This document shows positions 3,714 to 25,593 of a stretch of 64,000 bases of DNA, piece by piece (position 1 is the stretch's first letter; each line of letters opens with the position of its first letter). The DNA lies in the NCBI GenBank assembly GCA_009379825.1, contig WHTA01000022.1, positions 1 through 64,000 on the forward strand, written 5' to 3'. A model generated the notes under the pieces. The model did not search any database. It saw only the letters and a list, made by a program, of their open reading frames with translations, and had not been told where the DNA came from. Origin of the DNA: Streptosporangiales bacterium (GTDB lineage Bacteria > Actinomycetota > Actinomycetes > Streptosporangiales > WHST01). The position numbers and the translations under genes were made by a program.

Positions 3714-4868
3714 GTGAGCACTGAGTTCGATCTGTTCCAGCTGCCGGAGGAGCACCAGATGCTCCGGTCGGCGCTGCGCCAACTGGCCGACGACAAGATC
3801 GCGCCGCGCGCCGCCGAGGTCGACGAGTCGGCGGAGTTCCCGCAGGACGTGTACGGGGCGCTCGTGCAGTCCGGTTTCCACGCACCGCACATCCCCGAGG
3901 AGTACGGCGGCACCGGCGCGGACGCCCTCGCGACGTGCCTGGTGATCGAGGAGGTCGCGCGTGCGTGCGCGACGTCGTCGCTGATCCCTGCTGTGAACAA
4001 GCTGGGCACGTTGCCGCTGCTGCTCGCCGCGTCGGACGAGGTGAAGCAGCGGTACCTGCCGCCGGTCGCCGCCGGCGACGCGATGTTCTCGTACTGCCTG
4101 TCCGAGTCGGAGGCCGGCAGCGACGCGGCGAACATGCGCACCCGCGCAGTACGCGACGGCGACGACTGGGTGCTGAACGGCACCAAGCGGTGGATCACCA
4201 ACGCCGGCGTCTCCGAGTACTACACGGTGCTTGCCGTCACCGACCCCGACAAGGGCGCGCGCGGCATCACCGCGTTCGTCGCGGAGAAGGGCGACGAGGG
4301 GGTGAGTTTCGGCGCACCGGAGAAGAAGCTCGGCATCAGGGGCTCACCGACGCGCGAGGTGTACTTCGACAACGTCCGCCTCCCGTCGTCGCGGATGGTG
4401 GGCGCGGAGGGCGAGGGCTTCAAGATCGCGCTGCGTACGCTCGACCACACGCGGATCACCATCGCCGCGCAGGCACTCGGCATTGCGCAGGGCGCACTCG
4501 ACTACGCGATCGGCTACATCAAGGAACGCAAGCAGTTCGGCCAGGCCGTCGCGGAGTTCCAGGGCGTGCAGTTCATGGTGGCCGACATGGCGATGAAGGT
4601 GTCCGCAGCGCGGGAGCTGACCTACAGCGCAGCCGCAAAGAGCGAACGCGGCGACGCCGACCTCACCCTCGCCGGCGCAACCGCGAAGTGCTACGCCGCC
4701 GACATAGCAATGGACGTCACCACCGACGCCGTCCAACTCCTGGGCGGCTACGGCTACGTCAAGGACTACCCAGTGGAACGCATGATGCGCGACGCAAAGA
4801 TCACCCAGATCTACGAGGGCACCAACCAGGTCCAACGCCTGGTGATCGCCCGGCAGCTGCTGAAGTAG
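3714..4868 (+). CDS. acyl-CoA dehydrogenase
   Basis: 384 residues from the GTG at 3714, chosen because GAGAGGG at 3701-3707 sits 6 bases upstream; an ATG at 3699 lacks one. It is an FAD flavoenzyme that introduces the alpha,beta double bond in acyl-CoA. The FAD/substrate motif FSYCLSESEAGSDAANM, the middle-domain WVLNGTKRWITNAG and the C-terminal YGYVKDYPVERMMRDAKI followed by YEGTNQVQR (catalytic Glu) are all intact. The final 73 bases are repeated at 5789-5860 downstream of a foreign-looking segment. The last 250 bases use codons such as ATA, CCA and CAA more than the rest, compatible with recombination at this end. Confidence 0.95.
   Translation: MSTEFDLFQLPEEHQMLRSALRQLADDKIAPRAAEVDESAEFPQDVYGALVQSGFHAPHIPEEYGGTGADALATCLVIEEVARACATSSLIPAVNKLGTLPLLLAASDEVKQRYLPPVAAGDAMFSYCLSESEAGSDAANMRTRAVRDGDDWVLNGTKRWITNAGVSEYYTVLAVTDPDKGARGITAFVAEKGDEGVSFGAPEKKLGIRGSPTREVYFDNVRLPSSRMVGAEGEGFKIALRTLDHTRITIAAQALGIAQGALDYAIGYIKERKQFGQAVAEFQGVQFMVADMAMKVSAARELTYSAAAKSERGDADLTLAGATAKCYAADIAMDVTTDAVQLLGGYGYVKDYPVERMMRDAKITQIYEGTNQVQRLVIARQLLK
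4796..4868 (+). repeat. direct repeat copy 1: 3' end of the acyl-CoA dehydrogenase gene
   Basis: This is the last 73 bases of the dehydrogenase gene. Bases 4807-4850 are identical over 44 nt to 5799-5842. The final five codons differ from copy 2 at five positions, all synonymous (Arg CGG/AGA, Gln CAG/CAA, Leu CTG/CTA, Leu CTG/CTC). Copy 2 therefore descends from a protein-coding allele rather than from simple slippage. Confidence 0.9.
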
Positions 4869-4924: not shown

Positions 4925-4950
4925 CGCGGGAGCCGGTAGCGGCTCCCGCG
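4925..4950 (+). terminator. hairpin after the acyl-CoA dehydrogenase gene
   Basis: CGCGGGAGCC at 4925-4934 pairs perfectly with GGCTCCCGCG at 4941-4950 around a 6-base loop, 57 bases after the stop codon. No T-tract follows, as is common for terminators in GC-rich actinomycetes. Confidence 0.5.
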
Positions 4951-7303: not shown

Positions 7304-7783
7304 TCATTCCGCTGCGGGGGTGGCGCCTGCGGTGGCGTCGGGGCGGACGGCGCGGCGGATGCGGTGCAGGGCGTCGAGGAGTGCGTCGAGTTGGTCGGGG
7401 GTCAGTTGGCCGGTGAGGTAGCGCTCGATCGCGGCGAGTAGGTCGGGCAGGAGCTGCTCGAGGCGGGCGAGGCCGGTGTCGGTGAGGACGGCCGCCCAGC
7501 CACGCCGGTCGCCGGGGCTGCGGGTGCGGCGGACCAGCTCCCCGCGCTCGAGCCGGTCGACGATGCGGGTGATGCCGCTTGTCGACAGTCCGGTCTGGGC
7601 GGCGAGGTCGCCCAGCCGCAGCTGCTGGTCGGGCGACCTGGCGATCCGGATCAGGGCGTCGAAGTCGATGCCCGTCAGCCCGTGCCGGAAGTGCACCTCG
7701 TTCAGCCGCGCCGTCAGCCCGCCGTGCGTCTCGACGAGCAGGCCGACGGCGGTGAGGCGGGGGTCGTCGAAGCCGCTGTGCAT
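7304..7783 (-). CDS. MarR-family transcriptional regulator
   Basis: 159 residues forming a winged helix. RLGDLAAQTGLSTSGITRIV is the helix-turn-helix and LVRRTRSPGDRRGWAAVLT is the wing with the D-R-R motif typical of MarR, flanked by dimerisation helices. It is divergent from the flavin reductase gene at 7881 and likely controls it. The 97-base interval contains AAGACTAGTTCTT (7828-7840), an imperfect palindrome that would suit a MarR dimer. Confidence 0.9.
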   Translation of the reverse strand: MHSGFDDPRLTAVGLLVETHGGLTARLNEVHFRHGLTGIDFDALIRIARSPDQQLRLGDLAAQTGLSTSGITRIVDRLERGELVRRTRSPGDRRGWAAVLTDTGLARLEQLLPDLLAAIERYLTGQLTPDQLDALLDALHRIRRAVRPDATAGATPAAE

Positions 7784-7803
7784 GCGGGCAGTCTAGCCGA
7801 TAG

Positions 7804-7840
7804 TTGACGCGCGGAACATCCTCATGTAAGACTAGTTCTT
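7804..7840 (+). promoter_or_regulatory. candidate promoter and MarR operator
   Basis: TTGACG at 7804-7809 is followed after 17 bases by TAAGAC at 7827-7832, a weak -35/-10 pair. The imperfect palindrome AAGACTAGTTCTT (7828-7840) overlaps the -10, a position where MarR binding would repress. Confidence 0.35.
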
Positions 7841-7880
7841 GGCACAAGGAAATTCCTCGCAACAACTACTTGGAGGAGCC

Positions 7881-8441
7881 ATGGCCGCAGAGACGACGAT
7901 CCTGACGCTGCTCGGCAGCCTGCGCCGCCAGTCCGTGAACGGCCGGCTGCTCGACCTCGCCGCCGGCTACGCGCCGGACGGCACCAGGTTCACGCGCTGG
8001 GCGGGGCTGCGAGACCTGCCGCCGTTCAGCGAGGACGACGAGGCCGACCCCGGCCACGCCGTGTTCGAGTTGCGGGACGTCATCGCCGCCGCCGACGCCG
8101 TGCTCATCGCCACGCCGGAGTACAACGGGTCGCTGCCCGGGCAGCTGAAGAACGCGCTCGACTGGGCGTCCCGGCCGCGCGGTGCAGCGGCGCTCGACGG
8201 CAAGCCGGTCACCGTCATCGGCGCCAGCCCGAGCCCGGGCGGCACGGCGAGCGCGCAGGAGCACGCGCGGGTCGTGTTGACCAGGAGCGGTGCCCGACCG
8301 GTGGGCGAAGGCCTGCGGGTGCCGCACGCCTACGACGTGCTCGGCGCGCCGGTTGCCGGGTGGCTGGCCAGCGGCCTGACCGCGGTGCTGGCCGAGCTGA
8401 CCGACGCCGCGACGGCCGGCTCGCGCGCGCTGGTCGCATAG
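7881..8441 (+). CDS. NADPH-dependent FMN reductase
   Basis: 186 residues from the ATG at 7881, which has GGAGGAG 3 bases before it. Flavodoxin-like fold: LLGSLRRQSVNGRLL binds the flavin phosphate, and TPEYNGSLPGQLKNALDWAS is the diagnostic loop of the family. These enzymes reduce FMN, quinones or azo compounds with NAD(P)H. The next gene begins 10 bases downstream, so both are probably in one operon under the divergent MarR protein, pointing to an oxidative or electrophile response. Confidence 0.9.
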   Translation: MAAETTILTLLGSLRRQSVNGRLLDLAAGYAPDGTRFTRWAGLRDLPPFSEDDEADPGHAVFELRDVIAAADAVLIATPEYNGSLPGQLKNALDWASRPRGAAALDGKPVTVIGASPSPGGTASAQEHARVVLTRSGARPVGEGLRVPHAYDVLGAPVAGWLASGLTAVLAELTDAATAGSRALVA

Positions 8442-8451
8442 GAGTCCCGCC

Positions 8452-9381
8452 ATGCATACCTACGACCCGTCCGTTGCGTTGGTCGTCGTGGACATGCAGA
8501 ACGCCTTCGTGCACCCGCAAGGCGCGCTGTACGTGGCCGGCGCCGCCGAGCTGGTGTCGGCGCTCAACGCCGAGATCGCGGCCGCCACGTCGGCGGGCGC
8601 GCCGGTCGTCTACACCCAGGACTACCGGCCGATCGACGGCGCCGCCCGCGCCGAGTGGCAGGTGCAGCTCTACCCGGGGCTGCGGCAGGCCGGCGAGGTG
8701 GTCGTGAAGGGTCCGGGCGCGACCGGCGGCTTCTCCGACTTCGTCCTCGACCAGGACCCGGAGACCGGCAGCAGCCGGCTCGACCGCGTGCTGCGCGATG
8801 CGGGAGTGCGCAGCCTCGTCGTCACCGGTCTCGCCGCGGACGTGTGCGTCAAGCAGACGGCGCTCGACGCCCGGCGGCTCGGCTACCAGGTCAGCATGCC
8901 GCTGCCGCTGAGCAGGTTCGCACACGCGCACCCGGATGGGGACGCGGCCGCGGTCGCCGAGCTGACCGCCGTGGGCGTGGCCGTAGAACAGGACAGGAGT
9001 GAAGCGATGTGGACCAGTGCCGAACGCGCGTACCTGGCCGGTGAACACCTCGGCCGGCTCGCGACCGTCGCGCCGTCCGGGCCGCAGGTGCGGCCCGTCG
9101 GCTACCGGGTCAACGACGAGCTGGGCACGGTGGACGTCGGTGGTATCCGGCTGTCCAGTACGAGGAAATGGCGCAACGTCGAGGCCGACGGCCGGGTGGC
9201 GCTCGTGGTGGACGACGTCGGTGCCGGCGCCGAGTTCACGCCGCGCGGCGTGGAGATCCGCGGCCACGCGACGGCGGTGGTGGCCGGCGGTGAGGAGCTG
9301 ATCAGGATCGCGCCGACCAGGATCATCTCCTGGGGTCTCGAATCCGACGGCTGCACGCCCCGCGGGCGCACCGTCGGCTGA
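8452..9381 (+). CDS. isochorismatase/nicotinamidase fused to a PPOX F420-type domain
   Basis: One uninterrupted frame of 309 residues. Residues 1 to about 180 are an isochorismatase-fold amidase: catalytic Asp in VVVDMQNAF, Lys in VVKGPGATGG and Cys in GLAADVCVKQTALDA, the nicotinamidase triad. Residues 186-309 start with MWTSAERAYLAGEHLGRLAT and match the N-terminus of PPOX-class split-barrel oxidoreductases, many of which use F420. The ATG of the second part (9007) is preceded by AGGAG with proper spacing, so a separate downstream product is possible. The PPOX part is complete in length (about 124 residues). The F420 genes at 23-26 kb would supply the cofactor. Confidence 0.75.
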   Translation: MHTYDPSVALVVVDMQNAFVHPQGALYVAGAAELVSALNAEIAAATSAGAPVVYTQDYRPIDGAARAEWQVQLYPGLRQAGEVVVKGPGATGGFSDFVLDQDPETGSSRLDRVLRDAGVRSLVVTGLAADVCVKQTALDARRLGYQVSMPLPLSRFAHAHPDGDAAAVAELTAVGVAVEQDRSEAMWTSAERAYLAGEHLGRLATVAPSGPQVRPVGYRVNDELGTVDVGGIRLSSTRKWRNVEADGRVALVVDDVGAGAEFTPRGVEIRGHATAVVAGGEELIRIAPTRIISWGLESDGCTPRGRTVG

Positions 9382-9382
9382 G

Positions 9383-10189
9383 TCAGACGGCGACCGGCGC
9401 GGTGATCTTCGGGTGGTGTTGGTAGTCGACGATCTCCATGTCCTCGTACGTGTAGTCGAACAGGGATGCCGCCGGGCGCAGGCGCAGCTGTGGGAACGGG
9501 TACGGCTCGCGCGACAGCTGCTCCTTCGCCTGGGCGACGTGGTTGTCGTAGAGGTGGCAGTCGCCGCCGGTCCAGACGAAGTCGCCTACGTCCAGGCCCA
9601 CCTGGGCGGCGACCATGTGGGTGAGCAGCGAGTAGCTGGCGATGTTGAACGGCACGCCGAGGAAGATGTCCGCGCTGCGCTGGTACAGCTGGCACGACAG
9701 CCGGCCGTCGGCGACGTAGAACTGGAACAGCAGGTGGCACGGGGGCAGCGCCATCTTCGACAGCTCGGCGACGTTCCACGCCGACACGACCATCCGGCGC
9801 GAGTCCGGGTTGGTGCGCAGCGTGTGCAGCAGCTCGGTGATCTGGTCGACGTGGTCACCTGACGGGGTCGGCCAGGAGCGCCACTGCACGCCGTAGATCG
9901 GGCCGAGCTCGCCGTTCTGGCCCGCCCACTCGTCCCAGATGGTGACGCCGTGCTCCTGCAGCCAGCGGGCGTTGTCGTCGCCGCGCAGGAACCACAGCAG
10001 CTCGTAGGCCACCGACTTGAAGTGCACCCGCTTGGTGGTGATCAGCGGGAACCCGCGGTCGAGCGGAAACCGCATCTGGTGGCCGAACACGCTACGGGTG
10101 CCGGTGCCGGTGCGGTCCGCCTTCGGGGCGCCGTGCTCGAGGACGTGCCTGAGTAGGCCTTCGTACGCGGTATGAATTTCGCCAGCCAC
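9383..10189 (-). CDS. thyA: thymidylate synthase
   Basis: 268 residues from the GTG at 10189; an in-frame codon at 10213 is possible but collides with the divergent gene. Converts dUMP and methylene-THF to dTMP. Signature elements: [17 protein letters not shown], the catalytic cysteine in [40 protein letters not shown] and DCHLYDNH. The sequence is full length and looks functional. The stop lies two bases from the convergent fused gene. Confidence 0.95.
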
Positions 10190-10219
10190 AGCCCCGACCC
10201 TAGCTGAGACCATGGGCCG

Positions 10220-10729: not shown

Positions 10730-11284
10730 CTACCGCCGGACGACCGCGAGCACGCCGGTAGCGACGGAAGGCGGCGGCCGGAACGCGCGGCGCGGCAGCC
10801 GCCGCTCGACGTGGAACCGGTAGCGCCGCCGCCAGCGCCGTACGCGCGGGCGGCCGTCGGTCGCCTCGCCGAGCCGCACTGCCAGGTGCCACGGCACGAC
10901 CAGGTCCGCGCGGCGCAACGGGCTGTCGCGGTCGTCGAGCAGCCGGCCGAGCATGGTCATCGCGATGCTGAACGGCAGGTTCGCCACCACCCGGTACGGG
11001 CGGCGCGGCAGTGGCACCGTGCGGATGTCGCCTTCGACGACCCGCACGTGCGCGGCGTCGGCGTACCGGCGTTCCAGCCGCCGCGCCAGCCGCGGCGACC
11101 GTTCGATCGCCAGTACCCGGGCGCCGGTACGCGCCAGCGGTGCGGTCAGCGCGCCGGTGCCGGCACCGAGGTCGAGCACCAGGTCGCCGGGCCCGGTCCC
11201 GGACGTGCGAACAATCTCAGCGGCGATCTCCGGCACGAGGAGATGCAGCCCGTCGGGGTTGCATGCACGGCGTTCCCCGGACAC
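10730..11284 (-). CDS. Erm/KsgA-type rRNA adenine methyltransferase family protein
   Basis: 184 residues from a GTG at 11284. SAM-binding motif I VLDLGAGTGALTAPLA, the acidic end of motif II (VLAIERSPRLARRL), EGDIRT, and motif IV VVANLPFSI (the N-L-P-F target-adenine motif) are all present. Erm proteins dimethylate A2058 of 23S rRNA and give macrolide resistance, but at this length it is short and its C-terminal domain is reduced, so the substrate is open. The GTG has no convincing Shine-Dalgarno. A 31-codon frame with a strong one overlaps the start, so expression may depend on that leader, or the true N-terminus may be joined by a frameshift. Confidence 0.75.
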   Translation of the reverse strand: MSGERRACNPDGLHLLVPEIAAEIVRTSGTGPGDLVLDLGAGTGALTAPLARTGARVLAIERSPRLARRLERRYADAAHVRVVEGDIRTVPLPRRPYRVVANLPFSIAMTMLGRLLDDRDSPLRRADLVVPWHLAVRLGEATDGRPRVRRWRRRYRFHVERRLPRRAFRPPPSVATGVLAVVRR

Positions 11285-24634: not shown

Positions 24635-25593
24635 CCGATCTCCTCTGCGAGCGCGAGAGCGTCCGCGGCCATCCGGCCGGCCGCCGGCACGTCGCGCATG
24701 ACCAGCGGCACGGCGTGGCACCTGATGCCGGCCGCCTCCACCTGCTCGACGGCGTCCTTGTCGGTCTCGTCCACCAGCCAGCCGTCGAGCAGGCCGGGGC
24801 CGTAGAACTCCGCCACCCCCGCGGCGGTGGACGTCGCGCCGACCGCGGCGAGCACCTTGTCGGCCATGCCGCGCAGCGGCCGGCCGCCGATCACCGGGGA
24901 CAGGCCGACGACGGGGACGCCTGCCTCCGCGATCGCCGGCCGGATGCCGGGTACGGCCAGGATGGTGCCGATCGACACGACCGGGTTGCTCGGCGGCAGC
25001 AGCACGACGTCGCAGCTCTCGACCGCCTCACGCACGCCTGGTGCGGGCGCGGCGTGCTCGGCGCCCACCGGCACGAGGCCGAGCGCCTCCGGCTCCGCGT
25101 GCATCCGCACCCAGTACTCCTGGAAGTGCACCGCGCGCCGTCCGGACTCCGCCTCCGGGTCGGCGATCACGACGTGCGTCTCGACCGGGTCGTCGGTCAT
25201 CGGCAGCAGCCGGACGTCGAGCTGCCAGCGTGCGCACAGCGTCGCGGTGACCGCGGACAGCGGCTGCCCCTCGGCCAGCAGCTGGCTACGCCTGATGTGG
25301 GTGGCGAAGTCGCGGTCGCCGAGGCCGAACCACTGCGGCTGTGCGCCGTACGCGGCGAGGTCCTCCTGCACCGCGAACGTCTCCGCCGTGCGTCCCCAGC
25401 CCTGCTCCTCGTCGATGCCACCGCCGAGGGTGTACATCACCGTGTCGAGGTCGGGGCAGACCCGGAGGCCGAAGAGCGTAATGTCATCGCCGGTATTACC
25501 GATGACCGTAATGTCCGCCTGGGGGGCGGCGTGCCGGAGGCCGCGGAGGAAACGAGCTCCTCCCACGCCTCCCGCGAGAACGACGATGCGCAT
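24631..25593 (-). CDS. fbiA: 2-phospho-L-lactate / PEP transferase
   Basis: 320 residues, CofD/FbiA family. Transfers the activated phosphoenolpyruvate or phospholactate moiety to the deazaflavin Fo during F420 synthesis. Diagnostic N-terminus VVLAGGVGGARFLRGL, GNTGDDITLFGLRVCPDLDT, and LLPPSNPVVSIGTILAVPG. It is divergent from whiB and is the first gene of the fbiA-fbiB unit. Confidence 0.95.
   Translation of the reverse strand: MRIVVLAGGVGGARFLRGLRHAAPQADITVIGNTGDDITLFGLRVCPDLDTVMYTLGGGIDEEQGWGRTAETFAVQEDLAAYGAQPQWFGLGDRDFATHIRRSQLLAEGQPLSAVTATLCARWQLDVRLLPMTDDPVETHVVIADPEAESGRRAVHFQEYWVRMHAEPEALGLVPVGAEHAAPAPGVREAVESCDVVLLPPSNPVVSIGTILAVPGIRPAIAEAGVPVVGLSPVIGGRPLRGMADKVLAAVGATSTAAGVAEFYGPGLLDGWLVDETDKDAVEQVEAAGIRCHAVPLVMRDVPAAGRMAADALALAEEIG

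Follow-up and report, generated by a model that had tools for sequence, protein, structure and literature searches.

A single open reading frame of 309 codons plus stop joins, in an actinobacterial genome, a PncA-like cysteine hydrolase that has lost its metal site to a part of the PPOX/F420 type (Table 1). It lies within a stretch of 64,000 nucleotides from Streptosporangiales bacterium (GCA_009379825.1, contig WHTA01000022.1), which is referred to as the window. On balance, we favor the explanation that the frame arose by a recent fusion in a single lineage within a MarR-linked redox operon, that it yields two products and that these serve to reduce and hydrolyze an electrophilic or heteroaromatic compound. 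The open frame, its domains, the lost metal site, a separate PncA-type gene, the gene order and the operon of a congener are observed and form the basis of this explanation; the regulation, the dual initiation, the substrate class, the mutational event and the youth of the fusion we infer. If expressed, the fusion would link a hydrolase of the amide type with a probable F420 reductase and might hint at substrates of MSMEG_5819-type reductases and of the metal-less PncA branch, which are both poorly characterized. Moreover, it would offer a good example of gene fusion at an early stage, at which the start signals of the downstream gene are still intact.

Table 1. Features of the fusion locus, in window coordinates.
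Feature	Position	Strand	Remark
Divergent MarR-family regulator gene	7304..7783	-	
20-nt block TTGACGCGCGGAACATCCTC, candidate promoter/operator	7804..7823	+	18/20 identical upstream of the G001 operon
NADPH-dependent FMN reductase gene (PF03358)	7881..8441	+	likely start ATG 7881
Ribosome-site core AGGAG	8440..8444	+	7 nt before the hydrolase ATG (8452)
Fused ORF, 309 aa plus stop	8452..9381	+	open frame, Pfam and NCBIfam matches
Metal-less PncA-like cysteine hydrolase part, residues 1-185	8452..9006	+	D14, K86 and C132 present, metal-binding His absent
Short joint of about six codons, residues 180-185	8989..9006	+	from hydrolase end to PPOX Met
Retained ribosome-site core AGGAG	8995..8999	+	7 nt before ATG 9007
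Out-of-frame TGA	9000..9002	+	
PPOX/F420 part, MSMEG_5819 subfamily, 124 aa plus stop	9007..9381	+	own ATG

The first-pass annotation, made from the letters of the DNA, had described an in-frame fusion of a nicotinamidase-like enzyme and a PPOX/F420 domain, and the open frame together with matches to both domains confirms this. The isochorismatase domain (PF00857) covers residues 9-150 with 84.7 bits (Pfam cut-off 27), which places the first part in this superfamily. PNPOx_N matches residues 191-281 (41.9 bits, Pfam cut-off 28.1) and PPOX_MSMEG_5819 (TIGR04023) residues 188-296 (121.3 bits, NCBIfam cut-off 85.6), placing the second part in the MSMEG_5819 subfamily, which NCBIfam lists as PPOX class F420-dependent oxidoreductase. 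The third-position GC content is coding-like on either side of the joint (0.93 and 0.90). That both parts retain their key motifs, as also stated, holds for the catalytic triad Asp-Lys-Cys of the hydrolase, formed by D14, K86 and C132 in alignment with conserved columns, but not for the nicotinamidase metal site, which is lost. The PPOX part keeps 21 of the 24 columns that are conserved at 90% in 25 relatives. An AlphaFold2 model of the fusion (33 rows) reached a mean pLDDT of 87.5 and a pTM of 0.70, with low blocks at residues 91-100 (63) and 101-110 (69); the underlying alignment (A3) combined five of the 25 PPOX rows with 27 hydrolase rows, all trimmed by 8 residues, of which 25 came from the metal-site family. 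For the PPOX part alone no PDB sequence match was found at E ≤ 1.

The hydrolase of locus L034, the nearest in its branch, stops at the residue aligned with position 180, and alignments of related PPOX proteins begin at residue 186 or 187, so that the joint comprises only about six codons. The PPOX ATG (9007-9009) is in frame and forms part of the arrangement AGGAG-N7-ATG, whose core and spacing recur at the hydrolase start. Core, ATG and overlapping out-of-frame TGA were all recovered where the earlier reading had seen them. The 44 coding-like frames of the window contain 175 internal in-frame ATGs, of which only three, that at 9007 included, follow such a core, and the ribosome site at 9007 thereby exceeds the usual chance expectation for a domain border. 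With the ribosome site and the ATG of PPOX both intact, the locus is expected to give two products, and initiation probably occurs at both 8452 and 9007, which would give the 309-aa fusion and a free PPOX protein of 124 aa. The TGA at 9000-9002 may be the original stop codon of the hydrolase; equally possible is that a substitution removed a stop in the present frame.

The fusion is known from one genome. In 61 near genomes, queried with the fused protein, no match spanned both domains in a single open frame, and none of eight fetched near-genome matches that cross or approach the junction contained both. A search of 345 genomes of the order (E ≤ 1e-28) yielded no second fusion among the top candidates per genome, and as only these were scored, a diverged fusion could be missed. 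On plasmids, 71 records match the fused protein, of which none covers 80% of the query, and a nucleotide search gave no match. A scan of genome contigs with the fused protein returned 16 loci. At L013 and L017, hydrolase and PPOX are separate genes. Furthermore, none of 58 hydrolase loci (the best 30 each of the class and phylum searches, with short flanks) continues into PPOX, and 27 other PPOX loci lack a hydrolase domain. The window protein shares the subfamily match and the conserved columns with MSMEG_5819-type PPOX proteins of the FDOR group and differs from them by its N-terminal hydrolase. Altogether 162 loci were examined, with a hydrolase match in 114 and a PPOX match in 42; both domains occur in six, all of them copies of the window locus. 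The comparison with other genomes that had been recommended in the first-pass annotation thus returned no second case, and its suggestion of a young fusion with dual initiation fits with this result, with the related operon of the congener G001, which lacks the hydrolase, and with the intact start signals of the PPOX gene. In a literature search with most subscription journals outside its coverage, no title or abstract opening was found that describes the fusion.

An Actinomadura locus (L051) matching residues 7-248 was considered as a second fusion and rejected, as its partner domain is a glyoxalase. Here, a single ORF (L051:3962-4960) combines an isochorismatase domain (137.3 bits) with a glyoxalase domain (72.6 bits). 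As in the window protein, an isochorismatase domain is thus followed by a C-terminal second enzyme domain in one ORF, but the hydrolase belongs to another branch (30% identical) and the partner is of the glyoxalase type instead of PPOX. A frame resembling this isochorismatase-glyoxalase fusion is present at L050.

It is conceivable, though rather unlikely, that the fusion is real but of little weight, i.e., that a stop codon was lost neutrally, most PPOX protein still results from initiation at ATG 9007, with the long form being minor or tolerated. The intact PPOX start signals, the short joint and the occurrence in a single genome would all suit such a history, as would the long branch of the window row in the PPOX tree (1.0 compared to a median of 0.2), which could mean relaxed constraint. 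The conserved PPOX columns and the hydrolase triad are kept, however, and both parts therefore look maintained. Unlikely, and less probable than neutral stop loss, is that two ordinary separate genes were joined through an error of assembly or sequencing near 8989-9000. The out-of-frame TGA lies at the expected stop position and overlaps the ribosome site, the genome is a draft of 169 contigs, and no relative searched carries the fusion; against a slip, no single-base run between 8960 and 9030 exceeds 3 nt, which does not favor a base-count error, and the frame is correct as far as about residue 180 and then from residue 186 onward, confining any error to about 12 nt.

The hydrolase part has its closest sequences in PncA-like proteins of the phylum, with identities of up to 53%, and such matches are common: at E ≤ 1e-17 they occur in 48 of 394 genomes of the class and in 73 of 396 of the phylum, counts that include the genome of the window. 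According to one study, nicotinamidases bind their metal by one Asp, two invariant His and a fourth residue (PMC5531466). In the fused protein D57 is kept, the His at position 59 is replaced by Arg and the other two His fall within a deleted loop, so that the PncA metal site is absent. Of the 65 columns that are conserved at 95% in 25 metal-site PncA-like proteins, the window protein retains 39, including the triad; among the 26 lost columns are three His, of which one lies in the WP-HC segment. With the nicotinamidase equivalog model NF008623 the score is 75.4 bits (cut-off 174), although the reach of this model to actinobacterial PncA may be limited. The identical loss of the metal site was found in L034 (genome G159, same order) and in L067 (G662, same class), and the three proteins form one clade with support of 99/97. 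As judged from sequence, the hydrolase falls into a rare branch of the actinobacterial PncA family that lacks the metal site and of which three members were found. A profile of the three matches two of 342 genomes of the order, namely those of the window and G159; in the class it matches 48 of 394 genomes at E ≤ 1e-30, and only G662 (7.6e-102) and the window (2.0e-93) stand apart, the next match being at 5.0e-48. As all three members built the profile, this shows their rarity only.

The genome holds six isochorismatase-domain loci, the window's included. A separate PncA-type ORF, in whose translation the metal-site motif can be read, directly follows an ORF with a nicotinate phosphoribosyltransferase domain (87.3 bits, cut-off 32.6), and the fused hydrolase is probably not the nicotinamidase of the cell. 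These data do not uphold the proposal of a coupling between NAD-related amide hydrolysis and F420 chemistry. A bifunctional NAD-salvage enzyme, i.e., a true nicotinamidase tied to F420 chemistry, would accord with the PncA-like relatives, the triad and the nicotinamidases among the best Foldseek matches, but is very improbable given the lost metal-binding His, the low score of the nicotinamidase model, the separate PncA-type gene and the redox genes next to the fusion. Foldseek listed 50 solved chains for the fusion model, all of the isochorismatase fold, with nicotinamidases and RutB first. The fold and the Asp-Lys-Cys triad are common to PncA (PF00857; e.g., PDB 3pl1 and 1ilw), the closest sequence family, from which the hydrolase differs by the features of its metal site and by the equivalog score. 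RutB and biuret hydrolase, likewise cysteine hydrolases of PF00857 with the same fold and triad type, are not known to use a nicotinamidase-type metal site; the window hydrolase matches their models weakly (47.0 of 377.95 bits for RutB, 32.8 of 370 for BiuH). For genes annotated as nicotinamidase, the metal ligands are worth checking.

For the PPOX part, the genome encodes the F420 biosynthesis protein CofD at 24661-25587(-) of the window, about 15 kb from the fusion (390 bits, cut-off 257.45), which makes F420 a plausible cofactor, although the protein might bind FMN instead. FDOR enzymes are F420H2-dependent reductases that are often promiscuous and have quinones among their substrates, as described in two publications (PMC8498797, PMC5449967). 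The other close PPOX gene of the genome (L002, 50%) has a MarR-like match (35%) nearby.

In the window, the fusion follows the divergent MarR gene and the FMN reductase gene. In G001, two MarR genes on the minus strand are followed by DoxX-like, FMN reductase and PPOX genes on the plus strand, the PPOX frame beginning right past the stop of the FMN reductase with no hydrolase gene in between. Identities between the two loci amount to 57% and 54% for MarR, 50% for the FMN reductase and 48% for PPOX. A shared block, TTGAC(G/A)CGCGGAAC(A/T)TCCTC, precedes the first plus-strand gene in both, i.e., the FMN reductase in the window and the DoxX-like gene in G001. With a pattern built from the block and two additional G001 sites, one occurrence was found in G000 and three in G001, always at the operon locus, and none in G002 or G159; recovery of its source sites is circular, so that the information lies in the absence of other sites. 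Common descent of the two operons is suggested by gene order, by the similarity of MarR and FMN reductase and by the promoter block, but is not proven, since the PPOX tree places the window row, on its long branch, away from the PPOX of G001; the G001 operon also differs by its leading DoxX-like gene and its second MarR gene. Forcing the PPOX parts of window and G001 together costs 10.4 log units, and this constraint is not rejected (p-AU 0.089). The hydrolase gene may have been either gained in the window lineage or lost in G001.

Around the two tandem MarR genes of G001, TTGACRYGSGGAAMW occurs in three copies (L150:4296-4310, 4851-4865 and 4927-4941), a number reached by none of 200 shuffles, and it is a candidate MarR operator. 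As such an operator CTTGNNNCAAG at 7838-7848 was dropped, since 19 of 100 shuffles contain one and L150 has no exact copy. A consensus scan of 7700-8000 revealed no sigma-70-type promoter and a search of 7770-7900 no inverted repeats. In L067, the end of a frame resembling FMN reductase (39% over 67 aa) overlaps with the hydrolase start, and L034 has a divergent MarR gene (37% identical). In these three cases, the window included, the metal-less hydrolase thus accompanies redox genes or small repressors. The FMN-reductase-like frame (L067:911-1473) has stops near its 5′ end and may therefore be a pseudogene.

In the favored explanation, a recent fusion giving two products, the divergent MarR protein probably controls through 7784-7880 an operon that would comprise the FMN reductase together with a PPOX/F420-type reductase. 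In the window lineage, a gene for a metal-less PncA-like cysteine hydrolase would have been placed between the two, and, lacking a stop, it would be read in frame into PPOX after the joint. The likely role would be the reduction and hydrolysis of an electrophilic or heteroaromatic compound, with the hydrolase using Asp-Lys-Cys chemistry without the metal of nicotinamidases; judged by the company of genes, this might perhaps be a detoxification. A more specific proposal is speculative and improbable as a whole: the F420-dependent reductase domain would reduce an electrophilic heteroaromatic or quinone-type compound, the fused hydrolase would cleave an amide, imide or lactam thereby made labile, and the metal-less PncA branch would represent a small unrecognized hydrolase subfamily that is found alongside FMN reductases and regulators of the MarR or TetR type.

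Next to the fusion lies a thymidylate synthase gene, thyA (9383-10213, minus strand). As a syntenic anchor it failed, since two congeners, G001 (97% complete) and G002 (77%), gave no match; a weak match was found in G003. Further downstream, a 184-aa protein (10730-11284, minus strand) matches the family of rRNA adenine dimethylases (66.2 bits, cut-off 24).
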